From the NCBI RefSeq assembly GCF_041468085.1, contig NZ_CP121017.1, positions 1,157,501 through 1,221,500 on the forward strand: a stretch of 64,000 nt of DNA, written 5' to 3'. Below, in pieces: positions 4,489 to 26,773 of the stretch. The notes under the pieces were generated by a model. That model did no database searches. It was not told where the DNA came from and saw only the letters and a program-made list of their open reading frames with translations. A program made the position numbers and the translations under genes. Source of the stretch: Tistrella mobilis. Its GTDB lineage: Bacteria > Pseudomonadota > Alphaproteobacteria > Tistrellales > Tistrellaceae. Numbering within the stretch: the first letter of the stretch is position 1; every line of letters starts with the position of its first letter.

Positions 4489-5190
4489 ATGCTGAAGACC
4501 GCCGTCGCCATTCGCCACCTCGCCTTCGAGGATCTGGGCTGCTTCGGGCCGGTCCTGGAGCGCGCCGGCTACAAGGTCCACTACTACGATGCGGGTGTGG
4601 ACGAGCTCTGGACCCTGGATCCCCTGACCACCGGGCTGATCGTGGTGCTCGGCGGGCCGATCGGTGCCTATGAGGAGGAGAAATATCCCTTCCTCACGGA
4701 AGAGCTGCAGCTGATCGAGCGGCGCCTGGCCGCCGGCAAGCCGATCTTCGGCATCTGCCTGGGCGCGCAGCTGATGGCGCGGGTGCTGGGGGCAAAAGTC
4801 TATCCGGGCCCTGCCAAGGAAATCGGCTTTTCGGAGCTGACGCTGACCGAAGCCGGCCGCCGGTCCTGCCTGAACGTGTTCGACGGCGGGCCGGTGCTGC
4901 ACTGGCATGGCGACCGCTTCGACCTGCCCGAGGGGGCGGAGGCGCTGGCCTCCACGGAAATCTGCCCGGTGCAGGCCTTCTCTTACGGCGCCAACGCCTT
5001 CGGCGCCCAGTTCCACCCCGAGGCGGGCGGCGAGGGCTTCGAGCGCTGGCTGATCGGCCACACCATCGAGCTTGGCGGCGCCGGCGTCGACGTGCCGCGG
5101 CTGCGGGCCGACAACGAGCATTGGGGCCCGATCCTGAAGCCGCGTGCCGAGGCCTGCCTGGAGACCTGGCTGCGCAACCTCGACGCGTGA
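4489..5190 (+). CDS. class I glutamine amidotransferase-like protein (GMP-synthase-type GATase)
   Basis: 233 residues forming one class I glutamine amidotransferase domain. The nucleophile elbow GICLGAQ contains the catalytic cysteine, and QFHPE carries the histidine and glutamate of the triad. There is no synthetase domain, so this is a stand-alone GATase; related proteins hydrolyse glutamine or gamma-glutamyl compounds. Good ribosome site (GGAGG) before the ATG. It is divergent from the MocR-type regulator, which probably controls it. Repeat array B starts eleven bases after the stop. Substrate unknown. Confidence 0.85.
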   Translation: MLKTAVAIRHLAFEDLGCFGPVLERAGYKVHYYDAGVDELWTLDPLTTGLIVVLGGPIGAYEEEKYPFLTEELQLIERRLAAGKPIFGICLGAQLMARVLGAKVYPGPAKEIGFSELTLTEAGRRSCLNVFDGGPVLHWHGDRFDLPEGAEALASTEICPVQAFSYGANAFGAQFHPEAGGEGFERWLIGHTIELGGAGVDVPRLRADNEHWGPILKPRAEACLETWLRNLDA

Positions 5191-5201
5191 GAGGTGGGAG
5201 G

Positions 5202-5443
5202 TTTTTTTAGTCCCTCGCCGGGCGGCCACTACCGTGGCCTTGGCCGCCGCCTCAATGGCGGCTTGCTCCCGCACGGGGCCGTGCGGGAGCGGGAGTTTGT
5301 TAGTCCCTCGCCGGGCGGGGGCTGCCGCCCCCTGGCCGCCGCCGCAATGGCGGAGGTTTTTTAGCCCCTCGCCGGGCGGCCACTACCGTAGCCTTGGCCG
5401 CCGCCTCAATGGCGGCTTGTACCAGCCACGCCGGATGGCTGGT
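5202..5443 (+). repeat. structured repeat array B (three units with variable stems and two extra hairpins)
   Basis: Starts just after the amidotransferase stop. Unit 1 (5202-5262) has stem 1 GGCCAC/GTGGCC. Unit 2 (5296-5353) has GGGGGC (5317-5322) and GCCCCC (5327-5332). Unit 3 (5359-5416) has GGCCAC/GTAGCC. All share T-run, AGYCCCTCGCCGGGC, loop TRCC, then stem 2 GCCGCC-NCAAT-GGCGG. After unit 1 comes a hairpin with arms GCTCCCGCAC and GTGCGGGAGC (5265-5290). After unit 3 comes one with arms ACCAGCCA and TGGCTGGT (5421-5443), matching the end hairpin of array A. Stem 1 of unit 2 differs from unit 1 but still pairs perfectly. Fills the 320-bp gap before glyA. Confidence 0.88.
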
Positions 5444-5476
5444 GCGGGTCGCGTCCTGCTTTCGTCGTTGCTCCTT

Positions 5477-5488
5477 CCCCCCCCCCCC
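5477..5488. repeat. C12 homopolymer in the glyA leader
   Basis: Twelve consecutive cytosines 22 bp upstream of the glyA start codon. Such tracts slip during replication and are common sites of sequencing error. No strong ribosome-binding site is seen between the tract and the ATG. Confidence 0.9.
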
Positions 5489-5510
5489 GCTGCCTTCGGA
5501 AATCGCCACC

Positions 5511-6803
5511 ATGCTGAAGACTGCGCCTGTTTCCGTTCCCGATCGTGATGCGCCGCTTGCCGCGATCGATCCCGATCTCGCCCGTGCCATCCGCGCCGAG
5601 GAACGCCGTCAGCAGACCCAGATCGAGCTGATCGCCTCGGAAAACCTGGTCAGCCGCGCGGTTCGCGAGGCTCAGGGGTCGGTGCTGACCAACAAATATG
5701 CCGAGGGCTATCCCGGCCGGCGCTATTACGGCGGCTGCGATCCGGTCGACCGGGCCGAAACGCTGGCGATCGACCGGGTCCGCCGGCTGTTCGGCGCCGC
5801 CTATGCCAATGTCCAGCCGCATTCCGGCGCCAATGCCAATCTGGCGGTGCTGTTCGCGCTGCTGGAGCCGGGTGACACGGTGATGGGGCTGGATCTCGCC
5901 TGCGGCGGCCATCTGACCCATGGTTCGCCGGTCAGCCTGTCGGGACGCTGGTTCAAGGCGGTCACCTATAAGGTGCGGGCCGATGACGAGACGATCGACT
6001 GGGACCAGATGGCCGCGGAAGCCCGGCGGACCCGGCCGCGGCTGATCTTCGTGGGCGGCTCCGCCTATCCGCGGCAGATCGATTTTGCCCGCGCCCGCGC
6101 GATCGCCGACGAGGTCGGCGCCTGGCTGATGGCCGATATCGCCCATTATGCCGGGCTGATCGCCTGCGGCCTCTATCCCGACCCGGTACCCCATGCCCAT
6201 GTGGTGACGTCGACCACGCATAAGACCCTGCGCGGCCCCCGCGGCGGCATCATTCTGACCAACGATCCGGATATCGCGCGGCGCATCGACAAGGCGGTGT
6301 TCCCCGGCGTTCAGGGCGGGCCGCTGATGCATGTCATCGCCGCCAAGGCGGTCGCCTTCCACGAGGCCCTGCAGCCGGATTATCGTGCCTATATCCATGA
6401 TGTCGTCGCCAATGCCGCGGCGCTGGCCCGCACGCTGGATGCGGGTGGCCTGCGTCTGGTGACCGGCGGCACCGATTGTCATCTGGTGCTGGTCGACCTC
6501 AGGCCCTTCGCGCTGACCGGCAAGGCCGCGGTCGAGGCGATGGAAGAGGTGGGGTTGACCGCCAACAAGAACGCCGTGCCCTTCGATACCGCCACGCCGA
6601 TGGTCACCTCGGGCATCCGGCTCGGCAGCCCGGCCTGCACCACCCGTGGTTTCGGCATCGCCGAATTCGAAACCGTGGGCCGGCTGATCCTGCAGGTGCT
6701 GGGCGCCCTGCGTGACAATGGCGGGCTGGATCCCGCGACCGCAGCCGCCGTCCGGCAGGAGGTCGATGCCCTCTGCGCCCGTTTCCCGCTGCCGGCTGCC
6801 TGA
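5511..6803 (+). CDS. glyA: serine hydroxymethyltransferase
   Basis: 430 residues, normal length. It interconverts serine plus tetrahydrofolate with glycine plus 5,10-methylene-tetrahydrofolate in the cytoplasm. Family landmarks: [12 protein letters not shown] near the N-terminus, [24 protein letters not shown], and the PLP-lysine motif [17 protein letters not shown] chose the ATG at 5511 (MLKTAPVS); upstream in-frame codons read through repeat array B and the C12 tract and are not credible. Leader has no clear Shine-Dalgarno. Alphaproteobacteria often carry two glyA genes; whether this is the housekeeping copy cannot be told. Ends 56 bp before a strong terminator. Confidence 0.95.
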
Positions 6804-6859
6804 TTTTCAGGGGACTCCCACGTCGCGGGTGATCGAGCCTCACCTGCGACGCCACTGGA

Positions 6860-6890
6860 GCCGTCCGGCGACAGCCGGGCGGCTTTTTTT
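6860..6890 (+). terminator. intrinsic terminator after glyA
   Basis: GCCGTCCGGC (6860-6869), loop GACA, GCCGGGCGGC (6874-6883) with one T-G wobble, then seven T residues. Confidence 0.88.
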
Positions 6891-7284
6891 CATGACAGAT
6901 ATGTGAAATCGCAACCATAGCGTGTTGCACAAAGCCAGATCATCTGACCTATGCAGCTGAGTTGAAAAGAAAACGATCCCAATCAGACATGAAAATTTCT
7001 CAGGATTCTTTGACCAATGGTTGTGTTTGCGCTGGACAGGGATAGGGCGGATCGCTAGTTTATGGCACAGGCCGTTACAAATAATGACATAGGCCAAAAA
7101 TGAGACACGGGCCACCCAGGACCCGTGCCAGCACCAAGGAGAGCGGCCCGCCGCGCGACCCCGCCGGACGAGATGCCGTCGTTCGAAGATCGACCGAGAG
7201 AGATGGATGCCGCCACCCGATCGAGCCACGGGCAGGCGGACCAGTGACCCTGTCCCTTCGCACATGTTTTCGGAGAGCCCTGTC
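6891..7284. other. AT-richer intergenic region, probable promoter region of the diiron oxygenase genes
   Basis: About 394 bases without a credible gene. From 6891 to about 7095 the DNA is clearly more AT-rich than the neighbouring genes, as expected for a promoter or regulator region. No convincing -35/-10 pair, operator or riboswitch was identified. The last 20 bases contain the ribosome site GGAGA (about 7272-7276) for the oxygenase. Confidence 0.5.
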
Positions 7285-8274
7285 ATGACGACGATGAGCG
7301 CCCCCGCCATCGCCCCCGGTGGTACTGACGCTGCGCATCAGCACGAGCAGTCGGAAGTCAAAGCCCTGCTGCAGCGGATCGGCGACGGCTGGATCAAGCG
7401 CGCCAAGGTGCGTCGCGATGCGATCGATCTGACCTTCGATCCCGCCCGGCCGGATTTCCTGGAAGAGCTGCTGCCCTTCCACGCCCACCCGCTCTACCAG
7501 CGGCTGGCGCCCGAGCTGAAGTCGAAGATCCTGTCTGCCGGCTGGATCATCTACAACGAGAAGACCGTCGCCATCGAAAGCGCGATCGTCTCGCCCTCGT
7601 GCTACGACGCACTCGATGGCCGCATCCCCGGCCTCACCGACGAGACCAGCCGCCAGATCGTCTGTGAAACCCTGGTCGACGAGGCCTATCACCTGCTGCT
7701 GGTGGCCAACGCCAACCGGCTGACCCGCGCCCATCGCGGGCTTGACGATCTGAAGATCCCGGGCTTCAACCTGGTCACGATGATGAACCGCGAAAAGGCG
7801 CTGCAGTCGGAAGACTGGCAGAAGATCCTGGTTCATCTTGCGACCTCGGTCGTGTCCGAGATCTTCGTCAGCGACTATCTGCATCAGCTGTCGGATTGCA
7901 CCGAGATCCAGCCGATGAACATGGCGACCGTGGCCGCCCATCGCCATGACGAGCTGGCACATTCGAAGATCTTCACCCTGATGACCAAGACCTTCTACCC
8001 GGCGCTGAGCCCCCGGGAACAGGCCTTCTTCGCCAGCGTGCTGCCCAAGCCGATCGAATGGTTCGCCGATCTCGAACTCGACATCTGGTCGTCGGTGCTG
8101 GAGCAGCTGCGCGTGCCGGGTGCCGCAACCATCGTCGCCGACTGCCGGCCGCTGAATGCAGCTGCGCGCGAGCGGCTGGACTATACCGGCATCGTCGGCC
8201 TGTCGCACGAGGTGGGCATTCTCTCGACCGATGCCGGCCGCAACAGCTTCACGGCCATGGGCATCGCGATCTGA
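7285..8274 (+). CDS. AurF-type diiron N-oxygenase-like protein
   Basis: 329 residues. All seven diiron ligands known from the p-aminobenzoate N-oxygenase AurF can be placed with nearly the same spacing: E98, E133, H136 (DEAYH), E192 (SEIF), H219, E223 and H226 (HRHDELAHS). AurF oxidises an aryl-amine to a nitro group; other family members act on different amines, so the substrate is open. The next two genes are a rubredoxin and a rubredoxin-reductase-like flavoprotein, which suggests an NAD(P)H-to-diiron electron chain. Start at 7285 has GGAGA eight bases upstream; M at 7264 is an alternative. Family confident, substrate unknown. Confidence 0.85.
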   Translation: MTTMSAPAIAPGGTDAAHQHEQSEVKALLQRIGDGWIKRAKVRRDAIDLTFDPARPDFLEELLPFHAHPLYQRLAPELKSKILSAGWIIYNEKTVAIESAIVSPSCYDALDGRIPGLTDETSRQIVCETLVDEAYHLLLVANANRLTRAHRGLDDLKIPGFNLVTMMNREKALQSEDWQKILVHLATSVVSEIFVSDYLHQLSDCTEIQPMNMATVAAHRHDELAHSKIFTLMTKTFYPALSPREQAFFASVLPKPIEWFADLELDIWSSVLEQLRVPGAATIVADCRPLNAAARERLDYTGIVGLSHEVGILSTDAGRNSFTAMGIAI

Positions 8275-11797: not shown

Positions 11798-12664
11798 TCA
11801 GGCGAAACGCCGTGCGGCGGCGACGCAGCCGATCACCAGGATCATGACGACCAGAAGAGACCAGCCGACCGGCTCTCCAAGGATGGCGGCGGCCAGGGCC
11901 AGCCCGAGAAAGGGCTGAAGGAACTGCAGCTGGCCGATGCTGGCGATGCCGCCCTGGGCCAGGCCGCGATACCAGAAGATGAAGCCGATCAGCATGCTGA
12001 ACAGGCCGACATAGAGCAGCGCAAGCACCGCCGGCGGGGTGACCTCCGCCAGATTTTCCGGCCAGGCGAACAGCGCGAGAGGCAACATCACGGGCAGCGT
12101 CATGAGCAGGGCCCAGCTGATGACCTGCCAGCCACCCAGGCGGCGCGAGAGACGGCCGCCTTCGGCATAGCCCAGTCCGCAGAGAATGATGGCCGCGAGC
12201 ATCATGAGATCGCCCGGCAGGGTGCCGGCGACGCGCCCGGTCGAGACGGCGAAGGCCATGACCAGAAGGCTGGCTGCGAACGAAAACAGCCAGAACGGAA
12301 GACGTGGCCTTTCTCCCGCCCGCACGACTGCAAAAAGGGCCGTCATCACCGGTAGCAGGGCGATGTAGAGAAGCCCGCGTGCGGCGGTGATGTGCTCCAG
12401 CGCCAGGGCCGTCAGCAGCGGAAAGCCGATGACGACGCCCGCTGCGACCAGGATCAGGCCGGCCATCTCTTCCCGGCGCGGCCGCTTCTGCTTCAACAAT
12501 GAGAGCGCGAGGGCGCCGGCCGCGGCGGCGATCGTGGCGCGCGCATAGGTGAGGAAAAGCGGATCGAACCCCAGAAGGGCCAGGCGCGTGGCGGGGAGCG
12601 AGCCGCTGAAGATCACCACGCCGACCAGACCGTTGAGCCAGGCGGTTGGACGCGCCGGCATCAT
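11798..12664 (-). CDS. EamA/DMT-family transporter
   Basis: 288 residues with about ten membrane spans in two EamA halves; the second half contains YVGLFSMLIGFIFWYRGLAQGG and LGLALAAAILGEP, typical of this family. Inner-membrane exporter of amino acids or other metabolites; substrate unknown. The start ATG (12664-12662) overlaps the stop of the ketopantoate-reductase-like gene by four bases, so the two are co-translated. The 3' end meets the HxlR gene convergently, only 6 bp apart. Confidence 0.88.
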   Translation of the reverse strand: MMPARPTAWLNGLVGVVIFSGSLPATRLALLGFDPLFLTYARATIAAAAGALALSLLKQKRPRREEMAGLILVAAGVVIGFPLLTALALEHITAARGLLYIALLPVMTALFAVVRAGERPRLPFWLFSFAASLLVMAFAVSTGRVAGTLPGDLMMLAAIILCGLGYAEGGRLSRRLGGWQVISWALLMTLPVMLPLALFAWPENLAEVTPPAVLALLYVGLFSMLIGFIFWYRGLAQGGIASIGQLQFLQPFLGLALAAAILGEPVGWSLLVVMILVIGCVAAARRFA

Positions 12665-13587
12665 CCGGCCGCCGTGCCGGAACGCTGCGCTTCGTAGGCC
12701 TGCATGTTTGCCAGGCTGAGCCGGAGCAGCGGAGCAGGCACGCCCGCCTTCCGTGCGCGGGCGAGCATGTCGCCGATGACATGCTCGTGTTCGGTCCTGC
12801 CGTTGCGCGCCATGTCGCGGAACATCGACGCCGTGCCTGCCGAACCGCGCTCGGTCAGGGAAGAGGTCATCTGCGCCATGGCATCCGGACGCGGGGGATA
12901 GCCGCCGGCGGTCGCCGTCGCCAGACATTCGTCCAGCATCTCGCGCATGATCGCCTCGCCGTCGTCGGCAGCCATGATGGCGCCGATCGGCGCACGCATG
13001 AGCGTCGTCATTCCCGCATATGTGGCGAGAAACGTGAACTTCTCCCACATGTCCTGCACGATGGCGGGGCTGAGGGCGAGGTCGAAACCGCCCGGCTGGA
13101 TGGCCTCGAACAGCCGTTCCACCGCATCCGCCTGGTCCGCGCTCCGGGCCCCGAAGACAAGGCGCTGCAGCGTGTTGAGGTGCAGGATCTGGCCGGCCGG
13201 GTTCACCGTTACCCCGATGTGACACAGCCCGCCCAGCACATGTTTGCGGCCGAAACGGGCGTCGAGCATGTCAAGCTGGCGGACGCCGTTCAGAAGCGGC
13301 AGGATCACGGTGGACGGGCCGATGGCAGGCGCCACCGCCTCCATCGCCTCCGTCAGGTCGTATGCCTTGCAGGCCAGCAACACCGCATCGACCGGGGCCG
13401 TTGCCGCCGTCAATGTCGTGACGGGAGTATGGAGATCCCCCAGAGGGCTTCTGACGACCAGCCCGTCCCGGGCCAGCACCTCTGCACGGGAGGGTCTGAC
13501 CAGGAACCGGATGTCGGCCCCGGACGACGCCAGTCGGCCGCCGAAATAGCCGCCGATTCCGCCGGCCCCCAAGATCAAGATACGCAT
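12661..13587 (-). CDS. panE: 2-dehydropantoate 2-reductase-like protein
   Basis: 308 residues. N-terminal Rossmann fold with GAGGIGGYFGGRL at residues 7-19 for NADPH, CKAYD, LPLLNGV, and the C-terminal helical domain with EKFTFLATYAGMTTLM. Ketopantoate reductase makes pantoate for coenzyme A. Many paralogues with this architecture act on other 2-oxo acids, and coupling to an exporter rather than to other pan genes favours a specialised role. Family certain, pathway uncertain. Confidence 0.8.
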   Translation of the reverse strand: MRILILGAGGIGGYFGGRLASSGADIRFLVRPSRAEVLARDGLVVRSPLGDLHTPVTTLTAATAPVDAVLLACKAYDLTEAMEAVAPAIGPSTVILPLLNGVRQLDMLDARFGRKHVLGGLCHIGVTVNPAGQILHLNTLQRLVFGARSADQADAVERLFEAIQPGGFDLALSPAIVQDMWEKFTFLATYAGMTTLMRAPIGAIMAADDGEAIMREMLDECLATATAGGYPPRPDAMAQMTSSLTERGSAGTASMFRDMARNGRTEHEHVIGDMLARARKAGVPAPLLRLSLANMQAYEAQRSGTAAG

Positions 13588-13632: not shown

Positions 13633-14004
13633 TTATCTTGAAATACTCTTCAGATAATCAATGATATCCGACCTGTCCTGCTCGGATCGAATGCCGGAAA
13701 ATGCCATCCGGGTGCCCCGTAGAAAACCTTGAGGGTGCTGGATAAACTGGCTGATATTGTCTTCACTCCAGACGATCCCGCTTTGGCTCATCGCCCGGCT
13801 GTATCGGAAATCGTCCAGGCTTCCTGCGGGTCGTCCGATTATTCCCCGAAGACTCGGGCCCGTGCGGCTGCTGGTCTGGCCTGTCTGATGACAGGCCGCG
13901 CAAGCGGCGAAGAGCGTTTCCCCCCTCGCCGGGTCAGCCCTGGCGGGGGTAGCCGAGGCAAGGATTGCCGCCAGACCCAGGATCGTTTTTCCGACAGTAT
14001 TCAT
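13633..14004 (-). CDS. monoheme class I cytochrome c
   Basis: 123 residues. Signal peptide with cleavage expected after ATPARA (residue 23), heme site CAACH at 35-39, and distal methionine M100 in GTRMAF, as in mitochondrial-type cytochrome c. Periplasmic electron carrier. Its ATG overlaps the stop of the GMC flavoprotein (ATGA at 14001-14004), so it is almost certainly the electron acceptor of that dehydrogenase. Related gluconate or fructose dehydrogenases use a larger triheme cytochrome; here only one heme site is present. Confidence 0.93.
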   Translation of the reverse strand: MNTVGKTILGLAAILASATPARADPARGETLFAACAACHQTGQTSSRTGPSLRGIIGRPAGSLDDFRYSRAMSQSGIVWSEDNISQFIQHPQGFLRGTRMAFSGIRSEQDRSDIIDYLKSISR

Positions 14005-15764
14005 CCCAGGCGCCTCGGGCCGGACAGATACGACAGAAGATCTTCCGCCAGTCTCAGACCCAGGGCGCCCACAGGTCCGGTGGGGTTGTACCCTGAATTC
14101 TGGGGGAACACGCTTGCCCCCGAGATGAACAGGTTCTCCACATCCCAGCTCTGAAGGTGCGGGGACACGACGGAAGAACCGGGATCGGAGCCCATGATCG
14201 TCCCACCGGTATTATGCGTCGACTGATACTGTCTGGTGTCGTACGGGCTCTTGCGGACACTCGCCTTGCCGACGATCTTTGCACCGGCCGCGGCGGCAAT
14301 CTCTTCCATCTTGCCGTTCACGTACCGACACATGAGAGCATCGTTGTCGTCGAAGTCGAAGGTGATGCGCAGAAGCGGCCGCCCCCACTGGTCTTTGTAA
14401 TCGGGGTCCAGGTCCATGTAGTTCCGGGCATTGGCATAATTCGACCCGTGAACCGAAAGGCCCATGGACCGCAGATACCAGTCGGCATTTGCCTTTTTCC
14501 AGGCCGATCCCCAGCGGGGCGTGCCGGGCGGCAGGCGTCTCGTATCGATCGGGCGGCCATTCGTCTGGGTTGCGGAGATGTATCCGCCGCCATGGAAGCC
14601 CAGGCCGGTGTGATCGAAATTGTCGTTGTTGAAGTCGTCGATGACGAAACCCAGCGCCCCGGCCCCCATGAAGGGGTTTATGTATCTGTCCGGGAAGAAC
14701 ATGTTCAGGCCGGATGTCACCTGATAACAATAATTCTTCCCGACCGTACCGGTGCGGGTGACCGGATCATAGGGCGTGCCGATCTTCGACAGAAGAAGCA
14801 GGCGGACATTGCTCAGCGTGTAGCTGCACAGAACGAAGAGTGAGCCGGGTTGGATGAATTCCTGTCCTGTCGCCACGTCGACATAGCTCACGCTCTCCAG
14901 ACGGGTCCCGTCGGCGGTCGTGTTGAGACGGATGACCTCCGCACCGGCGCGCAGTTCGAAATTCGGGCGGGACCGGACGAGCGGAAAGAGCAGAGAGGCC
15001 GGCGTTGCCTTCGCGTTCGCTTCGCAGGTGAAGCGTTCGCAATGGCCGCAATACTGGCATTGCCCCAGCTGCATCCCGTCCGGGTTCCGGTATGGCTGGC
15101 TGGCATTGGCAGCCGGCAGCGGAAACGCCTCATAGCCCAGCTGCCCGGTCGCGTCCTTGAAGATCTGCGAGGCCTCCGACATCTCCAGCGGGGGAAGCGG
15201 ATATTCCGTGGCGCGCCAGGGTTCGAAGGGATTGCCGCCTGCCTGCCTGACGCCCCTCAGATTGCCCGCCTTGCCGGCAATGCCGAAAAGCGCTTCGAAT
15301 TCCTCGTAATAGGGCTGGAGATCGCGGTAGGTGAGCCCCCAATCCTGGATCGTCATCCCGTCCGGAATGGATTTTGCCCCATAACGCTCCGTCAGATGCT
15401 GTCTCAGAACATAATCGGATTCGGAAAAGCGCCAGGTCTGGCCGTTCCAGTGTTGAGCCGCCCCGCCCACGCCGAAGCCGGGCAGGAAGGACAGCAACTG
15501 CCGCATCGGCAGCGCCTCCTCGTCCGGGCTGTGGCGCAGGGTGTAGGTCTCGACGTTTTCGCGGCGGGTCATGCCGCGATAGGTCGCCCACCGCAGCTCG
15601 TCCCGCTGATGCGGCAGCTCGCCCACCGCCGACCCCGACCAGTCCGGGCCGCGCTCCAGAACGAGCACCTCTCGTCCGGCGGGTACCAGTTTGCGGGCCA
15701 CCAGACCTGCGGTCAGGCCGCCGCCGATAACAACGATCTCTTTTTCAGGGAGTCGCGTCGCCAT
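14001..15764 (-). CDS. GMC-family FAD dehydrogenase, large subunit (gluconate 2-dehydrogenase type)
   Basis: 587 residues. N-terminal FAD fold VVIGGGLTAGLVARKLV, then the C-terminal GMC region with THNTGGTIMG (active-site histidine segment) and the closing FAD motif NPTGPVGALGLRLAEDLL. A Cys-rich stretch CQYCGHCERFTC at about residue 237 could bind an iron-sulfur cluster, as reported for FAD-dependent glucose dehydrogenase large subunits. It has no signal peptide of its own; family members are exported together with the Tat-tagged small subunit. It oxidises a sugar, sugar acid or alcohol and passes electrons to the downstream cytochrome c. Substrate unknown. Confidence 0.88.
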   Translation of the reverse strand: MATRLPEKEIVVIGGGLTAGLVARKLVPAGREVLVLERGPDWSGSAVGELPHQRDELRWATYRGMTRRENVETYTLRHSPDEEALPMRQLLSFLPGFGVGGAAQHWNGQTWRFSESDYVLRQHLTERYGAKSIPDGMTIQDWGLTYRDLQPYYEEFEALFGIAGKAGNLRGVRQAGGNPFEPWRATEYPLPPLEMSEASQIFKDATGQLGYEAFPLPAANASQPYRNPDGMQLGQCQYCGHCERFTCEANAKATPASLLFPLVRSRPNFELRAGAEVIRLNTTADGTRLESVSYVDVATGQEFIQPGSLFVLCSYTLSNVRLLLLSKIGTPYDPVTRTGTVGKNYCYQVTSGLNMFFPDRYINPFMGAGALGFVIDDFNNDNFDHTGLGFHGGGYISATQTNGRPIDTRRLPPGTPRWGSAWKKANADWYLRSMGLSVHGSNYANARNYMDLDPDYKDQWGRPLLRITFDFDDNDALMCRYVNGKMEEIAAAAGAKIVGKASVRKSPYDTRQYQSTHNTGGTIMGSDPGSSVVSPHLQSWDVENLFISGASVFPQNSGYNPTGPVGALGLRLAEDLLSYLSGPRRLG

Positions 15765-15824: not shown

Positions 15825-16586
15825 TCAGGAGAAATCCTGAATCGACATGGGCGAGTCAGACGCCGGATGCCTGCGGCCGCGCCAGGTCACGATGTCGGTC
15901 GCATAGGTGGCCGGCAGACCGGGATAGCCGATCATCCGCCACGCCTGTTTGCCGCGGTTGCCGCCATAGATCGGATCGGCAAAGGCGCCGCGAACGAACA
16001 GCGGGTAGAACAGCTCGTTGAACCAGGTATTCAGTGCGAAAGCGGCGGGCTGCGGCGGCGCTTGCGATATGACGTGCAGCAGCTCTTCCAGTTGATCTGT
16101 CGTCAGACGATCCGGCGGTGCCGCGTAACGTTGCGCCGAGACCTCCGCGACCTGGCGCAGCCCGGCCTTGAAGTACTGCTCCGGCGTACAGGCAAGCTGA
16201 TAACCGTGCTCCGGCTTTCCCTGTCTGAACGGGCCGCTCAGATACAGGCGATCGCCCTGCCCGTAAGCTCCCGCCAACTGGCGGTCAATGAAGGTGGCGA
16301 TCCCGAGCGCGACGCCGTCGGGCGACAGATCGTCGGCCGGCCACATATGGCCGACCAGCGCCTCCACGATCGCGGCGTCGTCCAGGCTGAGGCTCTGATA
16401 GCCGTCGACCGCATCCGGCTGTGCCGCATCGGCCGCCTGCTGCGCCTCTGCATTTTCGCCGGTATCCCCGGCCTGCCGGGCGCGGGCCAGGCCAACCGGC
16501 GCTGCAAGCACACCAACGCCGAGCGCGCCGGCACTGGTGAGCAGCGACCTTCGGCTGAGGCCTTGCGGTTCATCTGGCGACATCAC
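15825..16586 (-). CDS. gluconate 2-dehydrogenase subunit 3-like protein with Tat signal
   Basis: 253 residues. Twin-arginine signal at the N-terminus (SRRSLLTSAGALGVGVLAAP), then a linker rich in Ala and Asp and the subunit-3 domain with VEALVGHMWPADDLSPDG and GIATFIDRQLAGAYG. In this family the small subunit carries the flavoprotein through the Tat system and stabilises it. First gene of the operon, 60 bp before the flavoprotein. Divergent from the XRE-cupin regulator with a 16-bp palindrome between them. Confidence 0.88.
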   Translation of the reverse strand: MMSPDEPQGLSRRSLLTSAGALGVGVLAAPVGLARARQAGDTGENAEAQQAADAAQPDAVDGYQSLSLDDAAIVEALVGHMWPADDLSPDGVALGIATFIDRQLAGAYGQGDRLYLSGPFRQGKPEHGYQLACTPEQYFKAGLRQVAEVSAQRYAAPPDRLTTDQLEELLHVISQAPPQPAAFALNTWFNELFYPLFVRGAFADPIYGGNRGKQAWRMIGYPGLPATYATDIVTWRGRRHPASDSPMSIQDFS

Positions 16587-16625: not shown

Positions 16626-16641
16626 GTAGACATATGTCTAC
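16626..16641. promoter_or_regulatory. 16-bp perfect palindrome, candidate XRE-cupin operator
   Basis: GTAGACATATGTCTAC, preceded by AGAATA, 40 bp upstream of the dehydrogenase operon and 90 bp upstream of the divergent regulator. A near copy (same AGAATA flank) lies upstream of the PPDK-like gene at 19511-19526. Confidence 0.75.
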
Positions 16642-16731: not shown

Positions 16732-17313
16732 ATGGCACAGCAGTCGGCTGAAGATATTGGCAAGAACCTCAGAGCGATCCGCCAGTTGCGCGGGCTGTCG
16801 ATGTCGGCGCTCGCCGCGGCATCCTCGGTCAGCAAGGCGATGATTTCGAAGATCGAGCGCGGTGACGGCGGTGTTTCGGCCACGACGCTCGGCAAGCTTG
16901 CCGAAGCCCTGGAGGTGGGAATTTCAGACCTGCTGAGCAAAGACGACATAAACAGCATCATATATCTGCCCGCCGATGCGCAGCCTGTCCTTCACGACAG
17001 CGCACGTGGCTTCGTCCGCCGCGCTCTTTCGCCCATTTTTCCAGGGCGTGGGGTCGACGTCGTCCATAATGAACTCGGACCCGGCGGGCGCACGGGCCCT
17101 TTTTCCCCGCACAAGAAGGGCATTCACGAATACATCTTCGTTCTGGCGGGCCAATTGAGCGTCCACTTGAACGATCGGAAAATCATCATGAAAACAGGCG
17201 ATAGTCTTTTTTTCGATGCCGATTGCACCCATGAAATGGTCAACGACACGACGGAAGCGGTCTTGTGGCTTCTCGTGATCGATGGCACGAAATACGTCAA
17301 GTCGATCACCTGA
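16732..17313 (+). CDS. XRE-family regulator with C-terminal cupin sensor
   Basis: 193 residues. Helix-turn-helix at about 9-65 (IGKNLRAIRQLRGLSMSALA and ISKIERGDGGVSATTLGKLAE) and a cupin_2 domain at about 105-185 (HKKGIHEYIFVLAGQLSVHL, FFDADCTHEM). Regulators of this layout bind a small metabolite in the cupin and often repress or activate the next operon. Divergent from the FAD-dehydrogenase genes. The palindrome shared with the PPDK-like gene suggests it controls both. The effector may be the dehydrogenase substrate; that is inference. Confidence 0.9.
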   Translation: MAQQSAEDIGKNLRAIRQLRGLSMSALAAASSVSKAMISKIERGDGGVSATTLGKLAEALEVGISDLLSKDDINSIIYLPADAQPVLHDSARGFVRRALSPIFPGRGVDVVHNELGPGGRTGPFSPHKKGIHEYIFVLAGQLSVHLNDRKIIMKTGDSLFFDADCTHEMVNDTTEAVLWLLVIDGTKYVKSIT

Positions 17314-17404: not shown

Positions 17405-19363
17405 TCAGGCGGCGCGACTGACTTCCGGCCGCTGATACCGGGTCGCGGTGGAGGCGAGCAGCGCTGCGATGATGGTCTCGGGGCTGGTCGACAGATAGGT
17501 CAGGCCGGCCGGGGCAAGGAATCGCGCCAGCCACTGGACGGAATGCCAGTCGGTGGTCAGCTCGCCCGCAAGACCCCAGGTGAACTGTTGATCCAGTTCC
17601 AGGGCAAGGCGGGTGGACCGCTGCAGCGCTTCATGCATTGCGCGACCGACCACGGATACCTGGACATGGGTGAACGGGCTGGAGGCAAAAAAGCCCTGTT
17701 CGACATAGCCGGGGATCAGATGGCGCGGCGCGTCACTGCGGTTCATGTTGAGGCAGGCGGTCGTGAAATCGTTGGACCCGATCAGGCCGCCGACCATGCC
17801 CAGCTCGTGGCCGCGCTGCCGGAGGATGCTTTCCAGGCAGATGAAGGCGCCGCCGGTCTCCAGCATGGTGGCCGCCCCTTCAATCGGGGCCGCCTTCACG
17901 CTGCCGAAGATGGAAGACGCGACCTCTTCGAGCGTCACGATGAAGCGCGAGGCCTCGTCGGGAAGCGTGAGCGTGGCAAGCAGGAACCGGACCTTCACCG
18001 CGGCGCCGTCTGCATTTGCACGCGCGAGCGCGCCCAGCACGGTCCGCAGCCACAGGCGCGCCAGATCCGGGCGGATCGAGAAGAGGCGGATGCCGCGGCA
18101 GCCGTGATAGACCTCCCGCTCGCCGCTCAACCGGCGGAAGGCGCTTTGCGTCTTTGCAGGATCAAGACCGTGCCTCGCTGCAAAATCCGCAATGTCGAAG
18201 TTGTCGGGCAGAAACTTGCTGAACGGCATGCACAGGGTTCTGACGACGCAGATCGCGCCCGGCCGGGCGGAGAAGATCGAGTAGTAGCGATCTCCGTGCC
18301 GGCGCTCGTACTGGCGGACGATGCGGTCGTAATGCTCTTTCGTCGTGCAGTCGTCTCCGAGGAACAGAATGCGCAGGATGTCGATGTCCGACGGCTCGAT
18401 CCACATCCTTTCGTCACGAAGCAGACCAACCCCCAGCGCGGCGTCGTTGCAGTCGATCGACAGGCCGGACTCATCGAAGGTCAGCGTCGAGGCGAGCAGC
18501 CGTGCCCGGACCACACAGGCGGTGTTGTGAACGTTCACATAGACCCGCAACGGCGACTGGGCACGACAGAAGCCGATCAGGGACTGGAAGCCCGAGAATT
18601 CATCCGACCCGACAATCTCCTGAATGTCCGCGCGATGGGCGGCAAAGAAGCTCGTATCCGAGATGCGTTCCCAGGCAAAGGCCGGCCCGAATTCCGTCTC
18701 GGCCGCCAGATAGGCGTCGGTCAGCAGGGTGTAGAGAGTGTCGATCCGGGACGGCGCGACCAGACGTGCGCCTGCGAAGACCAGGCCCCGTGATCCGGAC
18801 ATCGCCACCATGTCGCCTTCATATATCCGGGCTTCGCGGCCATCGATATCGACCGTCGAGATCCAGCGCTTTCTGGTCCTGACGACGCGGGATTCGCCGC
18901 TCTTCGTCCGGAAGTGAAGGTCAACGGGCTCGTCGCTTTCGTGATAGTCGATATTCGCGGCGATGATCGTCGATTTTCCCTCTGATACGGATTGCACCGG
19001 AGAGAATGTGGTCTTGCCCGGATGGTTGGTAAAAAAACCCGCGGCCCCCTTGATCGCCGCGAAATCGTCAATGTCCCCTTCGGCGACCGAGTAGATATAG
19101 TCGGGAGCGTCGGAGCTGTCGCCGGGGCCCTCGGACATCTGCTGTACCGTGCTCCGGTGGAGCACCAGGTATCCCGAATGATCGCCATCATGGATGGCCT
19201 CACCCGAGGCAAAGGGCGTGTACTCGTCGTCGGAAAAGCGCGGGAAGATGACGCCTTCAAGATCAGATGCGCGGATGCCGGACAAGATGTCTTCCGGTCT
19301 CCGGGTTCGGGTACTTATTCCGGTCAGCAAGTCCGTGAAGTCAAATTTGCTCAGCATCGCCAT
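17405..19363 (-). CDS. PEP-utilising-enzyme-like pseudoenzyme (C-terminal half of pyruvate phosphate dikinase)
   Basis: 652 residues. By eye it follows PPDK from the swivel domain to the end. Residues 107-133 match the phosphohistidine loop one-to-one, but the phosphorylated His is F120. GVGLLRDERM (311-320), VVRTLCM...FLP (R375), GCRGIRL (421-427, R423), the metal-ligand Glu E495, GSNDFTT (529-535, D532) and TYLSTSP follow in order. The catalytic Cys region reads GLAGE (597-601), with Ala599 for Cys. The ATP-grasp domain is absent. PEP and metal sites therefore look kept while dikinase chemistry looks lost. Start at 19363 has GAGGT upstream; a GTG at 19462 is less likely. Function unknown; sensor or new lyase are options. 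Confidence 0.75.
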   Translation of the reverse strand: MAMLSKFDFTDLLTGISTRTRRPEDILSGIRASDLEGVIFPRFSDDEYTPFASGEAIHDGDHSGYLVLHRSTVQQMSEGPGDSSDAPDYIYSVAEGDIDDFAAIKGAAGFFTNHPGKTTFSPVQSVSEGKSTIIAANIDYHESDEPVDLHFRTKSGESRVVRTRKRWISTVDIDGREARIYEGDMVAMSGSRGLVFAGARLVAPSRIDTLYTLLTDAYLAAETEFGPAFAWERISDTSFFAAHRADIQEIVGSDEFSGFQSLIGFCRAQSPLRVYVNVHNTACVVRARLLASTLTFDESGLSIDCNDAALGVGLLRDERMWIEPSDIDILRILFLGDDCTTKEHYDRIVRQYERRHGDRYYSIFSARPGAICVVRTLCMPFSKFLPDNFDIADFAARHGLDPAKTQSAFRRLSGEREVYHGCRGIRLFSIRPDLARLWLRTVLGALARANADGAAVKVRFLLATLTLPDEASRFIVTLEEVASSIFGSVKAAPIEGAATMLETGGAFICLESILRQRGHELGMVGGLIGSNDFTTACLNMNRSDAPRHLIPGYVEQGFFASSPFTHVQVSVVGRAMHEALQRSTRLALELDQQFTWGLAGELTTDWHSVQWLARFLAPAGLTYLSTSPETIIAALLASTATRYQRPEVSRAA

Positions 19364-19510
19364 GACGACCTCGATCAACCTGTTGATAGATTCTGTATAG
19401 AGCAAGATTGCATGCCTGAGGTTCGCGCCATGTATCCATTCACGGTTCTTAAACCCCCGCACAAAGCCCTTTTAGGTAGACAAACACACGCGTTATGATT
19501 GTACAGAATA

Positions 19511-19526
19511 GTAGACGATAGTCCAC
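19511..19526. promoter_or_regulatory. second copy of the GTAGAC operator, upstream of the PPDK-like gene
   Basis: GTAGAC-GATA-GTCCAC preceded by AGAATA, almost the same as the palindrome at 16626-16641 (one mismatch between arms). An extra half site GTAGAC lies at 19476-19481. Position is 148 bp upstream of the chosen start of the PPDK-like gene. Confidence 0.7.
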
Positions 19527-21428: not shown

Positions 21429-21932
21429 TTACCGGGATGGTGCGAAGCGTGGATCGATGGCCAGCCGTTCCTGGCCGAGAAGCGTGTACCGGCCGGCTGC
21501 GGCGCCGGCGGTGAATATCAGGTTCCAACTGTTGCGGGAGACGACGCTCGGAATCAGGATGAACGGATGAATGGCGAGCAGTTCGTTGCCGAAGGCCTGC
21601 TGGCCTCTGGTCGGCGGCCCAGGCATAAGCCAGTTCGGATTGGGGAGATCATCCGGCTGTACGACATGGATCGAAGCCGTATCATCGATCCGAAAGGCCG
21701 TAAGCACATGCGGGACGGTATCGAGCGTGTCGAAGCCCTTGTGCACGGCGACCTCGGCGATGGCCGTTGCCGGGTCGATGGAGGCATAGACGGCACGCAC
21801 ACCCCGTCCGTTCCAGCGCCCGCCGACCCGGAAGGCACCTTCGCCGCTGTCCCAGGCCGGGGCATGTCGCTGTGTGTCGATTCGCCAGCCATGGATCTCA
21901 CCCGTGCCCAGCCTGCCCGGCAACGGGGTCAC
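21429..21932 (-). CDS. RES-domain toxin (NAD+ phosphorylase type)
   Basis: 167 residues covering one RES domain: WRIDTQRHAPAWDSGEGAFR, GRWNGRGVRAVYAS (R39, Y49), AIAEVAVH (E60), and a later SRNSWNLIF with the family serine. Studied RES toxins consume NAD+ by phosphorolysis or hydrolysis and stop growth. Its ATG overlaps the stop of the Xre antitoxin gene by four bases (ATGA at 21929-21932), the normal antitoxin-first order. Confidence 0.9.
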   Translation of the reverse strand: MTPLPGRLGTGEIHGWRIDTQRHAPAWDSGEGAFRVGGRWNGRGVRAVYASIDPATAIAEVAVHKGFDTLDTVPHVLTAFRIDDTASIHVVQPDDLPNPNWLMPGPPTRGQQAFGNELLAIHPFILIPSVVSRNSWNLIFTAGAAAGRYTLLGQERLAIDPRFAPSR

Positions 21933-22393
21933 GTATAGACCCCGTAATCCAGGCGGGTGAGCAGTGTTTCGACCAGCGTCAGCCCGTCATGCGTGCTGAG
22001 CAGGTCGATCGGCCGGCGCCGATCCAGGGCAAGAGCCGGCATCTCCAGCCAACGCTCAGCGGCTTCCTGGCTGCCGAAAACCTCCGTCGCTCGTGCCAGG
22101 ATCCTGGCGAACTGCCAGGCTCGCCCGCTCTGGTCGGGGTCGAGCGGCCTTGAATCGGTCTTGCGCCGCTGGAAGGTGCGGATGCTGACCCCGAGTGCTG
22201 CCTCCAGCTGCTCTGGCCGCTTAAGGATAATCAGGGCATCGACGAGATGACCAAGGGCTTCGGCGGGGAGACCACGTCTGACAAGATCGTGGGCTTCCAG
22301 CTCCGTGGCCGGCAGATGCTTCAGCACCTTTCGGCCCCCCAGCATCTGCCCTGCCTGCTCCAGCTCTGCTGGGCGTACCATCGTTTCCGACAT
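21929..22393 (-). CDS. Xre/MbcA/ParS-family antitoxin
   Basis: 154 residues. A central helix-turn-helix-like region (LEAALGVSIRTFQRRKTDSRPL) and the C-terminal toxin-binding (DUF2384-type) domain with GRAWQFARILARATEVFGSQEAAERWL, ending close to the C-terminus as usual. It neutralises the RES toxin and represses the pair. Start taken at 22393 (MSETMVRP); an upstream ATG at 22420 would add nine residues. GACATG repeats around the start are candidate autoregulatory sites. Confidence 0.88.
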   Translation of the reverse strand: MSETMVRPAELEQAGQMLGGRKVLKHLPATELEAHDLVRRGLPAEALGHLVDALIILKRPEQLEAALGVSIRTFQRRKTDSRPLDPDQSGRAWQFARILARATEVFGSQEAAERWLEMPALALDRRRPIDLLSTHDGLTLVETLLTRLDYGVYT

Positions 22394-22436
22394 GGCCTGA
22401 CTCCGACATGTGTCGTGCAAGACATGACATCTGCCG
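22388..22436. promoter_or_regulatory. GACATG repeats, candidate antitoxin operator
   Basis: GACATG occurs at 22389, 22415 and 22431. The middle copy is part of CGACATGTGTCG (22414-22425), 5-bp inverted arms. The first copy overlaps the antitoxin start codon. Sited where type II antitoxins usually bind. Confidence 0.4.
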
Positions 22437-23131: not shown

Positions 23132-26100
23132 TCATCTGTCCTGGGGCGGCTCACCATAGCCGCCGCCGCCGGGCGTTTCGATCACGAACACGTCACCGGG
23201 CGTCATCTCGACCGTGGCGCAGGCCCCGAAGTCTTCGCGGCTGCCATCGGTGCGTTCCACCCAGTTGCGGCCGGGGGCACCGTCGCCACCGCCCGCAAGG
23301 CCGAAGGGCGCCACCCGGCGGCGGTTCGAGAGCAGGGAGACGGTCATCTCTTCCTCGAAGCGCAGCCGGCGGCGGGCGCCGTTGCCGCCGTGATGCCGCC
23401 CGGCCCCGCCCGAGCCCGCGCGGATCTCGAAGGCTTCCAGCACCACCGGGAAGCGCCATTCCAGCACCTCCGGATCGGTCAGGCGCGAATTGGTCATATG
23501 GGTGTGGACCGCATCGGTGCCGTCGTAATCCGGGCCGGCGCCGGAGCCGCCGCAGATGGTTTCGTAATACTGGTGGCGGGCATTGCCGAAGGTGAGGTTG
23601 TTCATCGTGCCCTGGGCGGCCGCCTGCACGCCGAGCGCGCCATAGATCGCATCGGTCACGACCTGCGAGGTCTCGACATTGCCGGCCACCACTGCCGCCG
23701 GGTAGAGCGGGTTCAGCATCGAGCCTTCGGGGATGCGCAGGCGGATCGGCTCAAGGCAGCCGTCATTCATCGGGATCTTGTCGTCGACCAGGGTGCGGAA
23801 GCTGTAGAGCACAGCGGCCCGGCAGACGGCAGAGGGGGCGTTGAAGTTGTTGTCGCGCTGGGCCGAGGTGCCCTCGAAATCGACCACCGCCTCGCGGGCC
23901 TCGCGGTCGATGGTGATGGTCACCTTCACCACCGCGCCGTCATCCATCTCGTAGGCGAAGCTGCCGCCGTCGAGCTTGGCGATCGCGCGCCGCACCGCCT
24001 CTTCGGCATTCTTGCGGACATGGATGGTATAGGCCTTCACGACGTCCAGCCCGAACTGGCGGACCATGCGCCGGATCTCGGTCACGCCCTTCTCGCAGGC
24101 CGCGATCTGGGCCTTGAGATCGGCCATGTTCTGGTCGGGATTGCGCGAGGGATAGCTGCCCGACGACAGCAGGTCGCGCATCTCCGCTTCCAGCAGCCGG
24201 CCCTGATCGACCAGGCGGATGCCGTCGATCAGCACGCCTTCCTCGTCGATATGGCGGCTGTCGGCGGGCATGGAGCCCGGGGTCTTGCCGCCGATATCGG
24301 CGTGGTGGCCGCGTGAGGCCACGAAGAACAGCGGTTCGTCTCCCGCCGCCGCATCCTCGGCGAAGACCGGGGTGATGACGGTGATGTCGGGCAGATGGGT
24401 GCCGCCGTTATAGGGCGCGTTCAGCACGAAGACGTCGCCCGGTTTCATGGCGCTGCCATGCTTGCGGATCACCGCGCGCACGCTTTCGCCCATCGATCCC
24501 AGATGTACCGGCATATGCGGGGCATTGGCGACCAGCGCGCCGTCGCTTTCGAAGATCGCGCAGGAGAAGTCCAGCCGTTCCTTGATGTTCACCGAATGGG
24601 CGGTGTTCTCAAGCGTGGCGCCCATCTGTTCGGCGATCGACATGAACAGATTGTTGAAGATCTCCAGCATGACCGGATCGGCATCGGTGCCGATCGCGAC
24701 CCGCTTGGGCCGCGGGATGACGCGGGTCAGGATCAGATGGCCGCGCTCGTTCAGCTCGGCCGCCCAGCCGTGTTCGACCACGGTGGTGGCGGTCGCCTCG
24801 ATCACGATCGCGGGGCCCTGCACCCGGTCGCCCGGCTGCATGACGTCGCGATCATAGACCGGCGCCTCGTGCCACTCGCCGTCGGAATAGAAGCGGGTGG
24901 TGGCCATGGTGCCGAGGATGTGGCCGGCCGGGGCGGCGGGCAGCACGGGATCTTCGGGCTGGTCGGTGGCGCCGATCGCCTCCACCTCGACCGCCTCGAC
25001 CACCAGCGCCTTGCCGGACATGACGAAGCCGAAGCGCTGGCGATGGGCATCTTCGAAGCGCGCGACGATCTCTGCGGCGCTGCCATGATCGACCGAGATG
25101 GTGCTGTCGCTGCCGCGATACTTCACATGCAGCCGGCGTGCGACGGTGATCCGCTCTTCCGGCATCGACTGGCCGGTCAGCTCGGCCGTGGTCTCGGCGG
25201 CAAGCTCGGCCAGCAGGGCATCGAGGTCGGCGATGGTCGCGTCCGAAACCTCCTGCTCGACCGCCCGCTCGCGCATCGCCCGGATATCGGCCAGGCCCAT
25301 GCCATAGGCCGAGAGCACGCCGGCCAGCGGATGCACGAAGACCCGGGTCATGCCCAGCGCATCGGCCACCAGACAGGCATGCTGGCCGCCGGCGCCACCG
25401 AAGCAGGCGAGCACATAGGACGAGACGTCATAGCCGCGCTGAACCGAGATCTGCTTGATGGCATTGGCCATGTTGTCGACCGCGATCTTCAGGAAGCCGT
25501 CGGCGATCGCCTCGGGCGCCCGGCGCTCGCCGGTCGCGGCCTCGATCCGGTCGGCCAGCGCCTCGAAGGCCAGGCGCACCGCTTCGGCGTCGAGCGGCTG
25601 GTCGCCCTCGGGCCCGAAGATCTTCGGGAAGTATTCCGGGCGGACCTTGCCGACCATCACATTGCAGTCGGTGACCGCCAGCGGACCGCCGCGGCGATAG
25701 CAGGCGGGGCCGGGATTGGCGCCGGCGCTGTCGGGGCCGACCCGGAAGCGGGCGCCGTCGAAGCCCAGGATCGAGCCGCCGCCGGCGGCCACCGTATGGA
25801 TGCGCATCATCGGCGCGCGCATGCGCACCCCGGCGACCACGGTGTCGAAGGCGCGTTCATACTCGCCCGCGAAATGCATCACGTCGGTCGAGGTGCCGCC
25901 CATGTCGAAGCCGATCAGCTTGTCGAAACCGGCCATGGCGGCGGTGCGCACCGCACCGACCACGCCGCCCGCCGGGCCCGACAGGATGCTGTCCTTGCCC
26001 TGGAACAGATCGGCGTCGGTGAGGCCGCCATTGGAGCGCATGAACATCAGCGGCGCGCCGCCCAGCGCGCCCGCCACCTTGTCGACATAGCGGCGCAGGA

Positions 26101-26773
26101 TCGGGGTCAGATAGGCATCGACCACCGTGGTGTCGCCCCGGCCGACCAGCTTCATCAGCGGGCTCGCCTCGTGGCTGACCGAGATCTGGGTGAAGCCGAC
26201 CTTCGCCGCCAGCGCCTTTAGGGCCAGCTCGTGATCATGCCAGCGATAGCCGTGCATCAGCACGATCGCGACCGCGCGGATGCCGGTCTCGTAAACCTCG
26301 CGGAGGGCGGCTTCGGCCGCCGCCTCGTCCAGCGCCTCCAGCACCCGGCCATCGGCGGCGACGCGCTCGTTCACCTCGACCACGCGCTCATAGAGCAGCT
26401 CGGGGCGGGTGATTTCACGGGCGAAGATGTCGGGGCGGTTCTGATAGCCGATGCGCAGCGCATCGCGGAAGCCGCGGGTGATGACCAGCGCCGTGCGCTC
26501 GCCCTTGCGCTCCAGCAGCGCATTGGTGGCGACGGTGGTGCCCATCTTCACCGCGGCGATCCGCTCGGCCGGGATGGCGGCACCCGCCTCGACTTCCAGG
26601 AAGGCGCGGATCGCGGCCAGCGCCGCATCGTCATAGCGCTCGGGGTTCTCGGACAGAAGTTTCATCGTATGCACCGTGCCCCCGGGGGCGCGGGCCACCA
26701 CGTCGGTGAAGGTGCCGCCGCGATCGATCCAGAACTGCCAGGCGTCGCGGGTGAGGGGAGCGGAAGCGGTCAT
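23132..26773 (-). CDS. fused hydantoinase A/B (5-oxoprolinase-type) enzyme
   Basis: 1213 residues. The N-terminal HyuA half (about 1-690) begins with [19 protein letters not shown] and contains [28 protein letters not shown] and [17 protein letters not shown]. The HyuB half (about 700-1213) contains [35 protein letters not shown] and RGHHADIGG. Eukaryotic and some bacterial 5-oxoprolinases have this fused form and open 5-oxoproline to glutamate with ATP; separate HyuA/HyuB act on hydantoins. It follows TRAP-transporter genes in one minus-strand unit, so the substrate is probably imported. Fusion certain, substrate inferred. Confidence 0.9.

Follow-up and report, generated by a model that had tools for sequence, protein, structure and literature searches.

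The 64,000-nucleotide stretch of the Tistrella mobilis genome analysed here (the window) encodes a descendant of pyruvate phosphate dikinase (PPDK) that very probably has a different job on the old enzyme scaffold. The open reading frame at 17405–19363 on the minus strand is confirmed, and its 652-residue product consists of the linker, swivel domain and PEP/pyruvate-binding TIM barrel of PPDK without the ATP-grasp domain. Along its full length the protein is homologous to the region of PPDK beyond the ATP domain, and its sequence excludes the dikinase reaction. The initial annotation had claimed as much, describing a PPDK-derived protein with its PEP and metal site retained, and the homology, the residues Phe120 and Ala599 and the ligand set described below bear it out. 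A separate PPDK of the normal type is encoded in the genome that carries the window.

Several searches place the protein within the PPDK lineage. The best family match is NCBIfam TIGR01828 (PPDK), at an E value of 1.6e-29, although its score of 102.5 bits misses the curated cut-off of 843. The only Pfam domain seen is PEP-utilizers_C (PF02896), which covers residues 307–634 (E 9.6e-13) and passes its gathering threshold with 48.4 against 22.8 bits. The initial annotation had suggested searches with both the TIM-barrel and the swivel families; the former is the PF02896 match, whereas the mobile-domain family PF00391 gives no match to the protein up to E 10. The swivel, or central, domain (residues ~50–205; 18749–19216; like all features within the gene, on the minus strand) is instead assigned by profile-profile comparison, in which the N-terminal half alone matches PPDKs at 96.6% (E 6.6e-10). 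When the whole family is compared with PPDKs by hhalign, the match reaches 99.8% (E 3.3e-30) and spans 519 columns, in which the swivel loops align in register, in agreement with the PPDK order first proposed for it. The TIM barrel follows at residues ~270–640 (17444–18556). Two family-specific insertions are absent from PPDK: a beta-hairpin within the swivel domain (residues 139–171; 18851–18949) and a helical segment at the swivel/barrel junction (residues 206–269; 18557–18748). Among solved structures, the strong matches found by sequence are PPDKs only (E values to 3e-22); PTS enzyme I is reached at 0.02–0.04, and the same search does not find PEP synthase.

The absence of the N-terminal ATP-grasp domain, noted from the outset, is supported by a Pfam search of the protein, which gave no ATP-grasp match, and by the structural match, in which PPDK residue 337 corresponds to the start of the protein. 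An AlphaFold2 model built with PPDK rows in the alignment (pLDDT 85.7, pTM 0.87) superposes on PPDK residues 337–874 with a Z score of 36 and 3.1 Å over 521 residues, and the structural match to the C-terminal part of PPDK that had been suggested as a check is thus obtained. With family rows only, the model is poor (pLDDT 38), so both the prediction and the fold match depend on the PPDK alignment; the homology inferred from sequence profiles is one that stands without the structural model. The model superposes better on the PPDK conformers 5JVJ, 5JVL and 2R82 (3.0–3.5 Å) than on 1DIK and 1KBL (~10 Å), which suggests a swivel domain docked on the PEP domain; the evidence is weak because the protein has no ATP domain as the alternative docking partner. 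The TIM barrel of the model also resembles barrels of the citrate-lyase/malyl-CoA-lyase type and that of pyruvate kinase.

Mapping onto Clostridium symbiosum PPDK numbering (C. symbiosum) reveals a binding site that is complete and a phosphoryl-transfer apparatus that is gone. The roles of the arginine, glutamate, asparagine, aspartate, histidine and cysteine residues of PPDK are general family knowledge, for which see Herzberg et al. (2002), cited in PMC5371819. The phosphorylatable histidine of the PPDK swivel loop (TSH), His455, aligns with Phe120 (19004–19006), and the acid/base cysteine, Cys831, aligns with Ala599 (17567–17569), both as read in the initial annotation. The two PEP-binding arginines named there also hold, Arg375 (18239–18241) being equivalent to PPDK Arg617 and Arg423 (18095–18097) to Arg665; a third, the phosphate-binding Arg316 (18416–18418; PPDK Arg561), had been missed. 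Of the two metal ligands proposed, Asp532 is retained as the equivalent of Asp769, lying within the substrate- and metal-binding pair Asn531-Asp532 (17768–17773; PPDK Asn768-Asp769), whereas Glu495 was an error for Glu502 (17858–17860), the equivalent of Glu745. The arginine trio, the metal-binding glutamate and aspartate and the asparagine are all kept, and purifying selection on this set is strong.

Relatives of the protein carry the same substitutions. The closest named relative, on T. mobilis plasmid pTM3, is 95% identical over the protein, and three Tistrella genomes contain members (the window's own and two at 94–95%). A Nitratireductor metagenome-assembled genome (MAG) holds a copy with 80–91% identity by segment, Lautropia dentalis one with 32% identity in the N-terminal (swivel) half and 55% in the C-terminal (barrel) half, and a further Burkholderiales genome, G380, a fragment. 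In the homologue alignment, phenylalanine stands in place of the histidine in Tistrella, Lautropia and Nitratireductor, and every relative that covers these two positions has phenylalanine at the first and alanine at the second; no relative with the histidine or the cysteine emerged from this alignment, which had been put forward as a check on misalignment. Positions with the same residue in at least 95% of 28 PPDKs were taken as PPDK-invariant: 58 of these are kept in both Tistrella and Lautropia, every ligand residue among them, 61 have been replaced identically in the two lineages, and 54 are otherwise changed. The 61 concordant replacements, together with the Phe and Ala kept in Lautropia, indicate a fixed redesign and not decay. 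The ratio of non-synonymous to synonymous substitutions (dN/dS) is 0.08 overall among the intact Tistrella copies; between Tistrella species the barrel has a value of 0.03 and the swivel half one of 0.16, and between Tistrella and Nitratireductor the values are 0.04 and 0.11, respectively, with synonymous sites near saturation in the latter comparison.

The family is very rare. One of 398 genomes in a sample of the phylum has a member (the window's own), as do three of 385 in the class, all Tistrella, two of 399 in Burkholderiales and one of 297 in the order of Nitratireductor; sampling the families of Lautropia and G380 yields no further member. An exact-pattern scan of ~85,000 species, of a kind that reaches close relatives only, finds three loci. 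Matches in viral and phage collections are normal PPDKs or distant PPDK-type sequences, where there are any, and none is a family member. Seemingly full-length relatives from Nonomuraea and Embleya in a plasmid collection turned out to be ordinary PPDKs. Intact copies are found in Tistrella only: the Nitratireductor copy is frameshifted, possibly through an assembly error, that of G380 is truncated, and that of Lautropia is split by an IS66-like insertion. This element occupies locus positions 5412–8045 and, by reading, contains transposase and accessory open reading frames; an apparent duplication in Lautropia, where two matches overlap at residues 262–298, arises from misalignment at the borders of the insertion.

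In the window, the gene lies tail to tail with a gene for an XRE-type helix-turn-helix and cupin regulator (16732–17313, plus strand), which is itself divergent from a run of five minus-strand genes. These encode a twin-arginine small subunit resembling gluconate 2-dehydrogenase subunit 3 (G2DH3; 15825–16586), a GMC-family FAD dehydrogenase large subunit (14001–15764) whose nearest solved relative is the large subunit of fructose dehydrogenase, a c-type cytochrome (13633–14004), a 2-oxoacid reductase of the 2-dehydropantoate 2-reductase (PanE/ApbA) family (12661–13587) and an EamA/DMT permease (11798–12661). All seven genes are kept together in the Tistrella genomes and the Nitratireductor MAG, and no kinase or PTS-like gene is among them. 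In Lautropia, a DapA-type pyruvate aldolase gene, scoring above its curated cut-off, is immediately upstream of the PPDK-like gene, a MocR regulator gene is also near, and a lactate-permease relative lies downstream; no XRE-cupin neighbour is present within the 17 kb seen. The dehydrogenase, reductase, permease and Lautropia aldolase share a 2-oxoacid theme without naming a unique substrate. The cassette cytochrome is 65–70% identical between genomes versus 89–97% for the GMC subunit, indicating a much faster rate of change in the electron acceptor than in the enzyme. The cassette is on plasmid pTM3 in T. mobilis and on a 4.9 Mb contig in the window's genome. Beside the Nitratireductor copy are open reading frames that read as relaxase-like and DNA methyltransferase-like (locus positions 5169–7247), which suggests transfer of the cassette by mobile elements.

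Two other loci lie nearby in the window, both on the minus strand. First, a RES-domain toxin gene adjoins an Xre/MbcA/ParS-type antitoxin gene at 21429–22420, forming a RES-Xre toxin-antitoxin pair that is intact in one sister genome; the other matches only part of the antitoxin. Second, 23132–26773 encodes a 1213-residue fused hydantoinase/oxoprolinase-like protein with both subunits in one chain; its matches to the caprolactamase alpha and beta models fall short of the cut-offs, and its gene adjoins one for a TRAP-type transporter.

A shared operator stands at two sites in the cassette. The palindrome GTAGAC-N4-GTCTAC occurs exactly in the gap between the XRE-cupin and G2DH3 genes (GTAGACATATGTCTAC; 16626–16641) and with one mismatch upstream of the PPDK-like gene (GTAGACGATAGTCCAC; 19511–19526), and both sites have TACTAT downstream. 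Its presence in the two gaps confirms the operator that the initial annotation saw as shared by the PPDK-like gene, the FAD dehydrogenase operon and the regulator gene. The window holds three sites at two or fewer mismatches against a mean of 0.47 in shuffled versions, and in each of four whole genomes the cassette pair ranks above all other sites, those elsewhere having two mismatches. The upstream operator lies over the -35 region of a sigma-70-like promoter, TGGACT-16-TACAAT (19498–19525, minus strand; 9/12, a level expected about once by chance in the 3.1 kb scanned). The position of the sites suggests that the XRE-cupin protein binds them. With its two sites, the operator also defines a small regulon and so opens the substrate to direct testing.

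The best explanation of these data, to which we would give slightly less than an even chance, is that of a neofunctionalised PPDK descendant in which phosphoryl transfer is lost and the old PEP/pyruvate site serves as a stand-alone metal-dependent active site. Because the phosphate arginines and the PEP/metal site are kept, the ligand is expected to be phosphorylated or a dicarboxylate. The three arginines would still hold a phosphate or a second carboxylate, as in PEP or a 2-oxo-dicarboxylate, and the metal bound by Glu502 and Asp532 would stabilise an enolate. The loss of the proton-donating cysteine implies that an enolate is not simply protonated there, which leaves C–C lysis or condensation, or pure binding. 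The enolate would be made or used by C–C bond cleavage or formation, of an aldolase, decarboxylase or PEP-condensing type, instead of being protonated to pyruvate, and the histidine-less swivel loop would be a fixed lid, no longer a carrier. The protein would belong to a dedicated pathway with the periplasmic GMC dehydrogenase, the PanE-type 2-oxoacid reductase and the EamA permease, all of whose genes the XRE-cupin protein would switch at the GTAGAC-N4-GTCTAC operators. A metal-dependent pyruvate/2-oxoacid lyase function, acting on a C–C bond at the pyruvate enolate, is put forward as a proposal only. In its more specific form, which we hold more tentatively still, the PPDK scaffold may act as a C–C lyase or PEP-condensing synthase in which an aldehyde or CO2 captures or leaves the enolate beneath the former phosphohistidine loop; if true, it would add a new class of reaction to the PPDK family.

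A less likely alternative is that the protein is a ligand-sensing pseudoenzyme, which would bind PEP, oxalate or another 2-oxoacid together with a metal, undergo a conformational change by way of its swivel half and signal, without chemistry, to a partner, be it the XRE-cupin protein, the dehydrogenase or the genuine PPDK. The joint loss of the histidine, the cysteine and the ATP domain from a protein that retains its binding set fits such a sensor, as do the operators common to the PPDK-like gene and its tail-to-tail regulator neighbour. However, the XRE-cupin regulator already has a cupin ligand domain of its own, and the Lautropia gene has no such regulator in the region seen. Conservation is highest in the barrel rather than at a new swivel-half interface, and the many coordinated second-shell changes are those expected of a new reaction. 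The initial annotation had left the choice between a metabolite sensor and a new reaction; the 61 fixed, concordant changes and the extremely conserved barrel speak for the latter, and it is for these that catalysis is preferred over sensing here. The faster evolution of the swivel half would also be expected of a loose sensor or scaffold and counts against the new-reaction reading.

It is improbable that the protein still acts on PEP phosphate, whether by hydrolysing PEP or by exchanging phosphate with a partner that supplies a histidine in trans. The three phosphate-binding arginines and both metal ligands would suit this role, but the protein's own swivel loop, with Phe for His, occupies the place that a partner would need, a separate PPDK is encoded in the genome, and the cassette offers neither a kinase nor a PTS-like gene. 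A decaying PPDK remnant is very improbable: the copies outside Tistrella are indeed frameshifted, interrupted or truncated, but within Tistrella the low dN/dS of the intact copies contradicts decay, as do the conserved operator and promoter region and the concordant replacements. The idea that misalignment or a sequence error has disguised an ordinary PPDK, to which the best family match might point, can be dismissed given a score so far below the PPDK cut-off, the same Phe and Ala in three Tistrella genomes, Nitratireductor and Lautropia, and the true PPDK elsewhere in the genome.

PPDK serves as a model enzyme for catalysis by domain swivelling. The protein described here has the same linker-swivel-TIM barrel order as PPDK (TIGR01828; 5JVJ/5JVL, 1VBG, 1DIK) and all of its PEP and metal ligands; unlike PPDK, it lacks the ATP-grasp domain, the phospho-histidine and the acid cysteine, and it carries the hairpin and helical insertions and dozens of further replacements shared within the family. 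The PEP-binding domains of PTS enzyme I and PEP synthase have a barrel homologous to that of the protein, with a much weaker sequence match, and both are phosphotransferases with His and Cys, unlike the protein. Citrate-lyase beta-like proteins, citramalyl-CoA lyase and malate synthase have a similar TIM barrel (Z ~16 for citrate-lyase-like chains), and these metal-dependent lyases of the PEP/pyruvate superfamily perform enolate chemistry of the kind proposed here; no sequence relationship to them was found, and membership is not claimed. No account of PPDK-like proteins without the histidine, or of this gene combination, was found in the open-access literature. The nearest parallel is VadK (Rv1127c) of Mycobacterium tuberculosis, a truncated PPDK descendant with the ATP-grasp domain and the histidine and without the PEP domain (PMC13400623). 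Both are truncated, repurposed descendants unable to perform the dikinase reaction, but the truncations are reciprocal, the Tistrella protein keeping the PEP domain without the ATP-grasp domain and the histidine. A conserved, regulated PPDK descendant with the PEP/pyruvate half only would show that half of the enzyme can be recruited alone, and together with VadK it represents complementary halves of PPDK, each repurposed separately.
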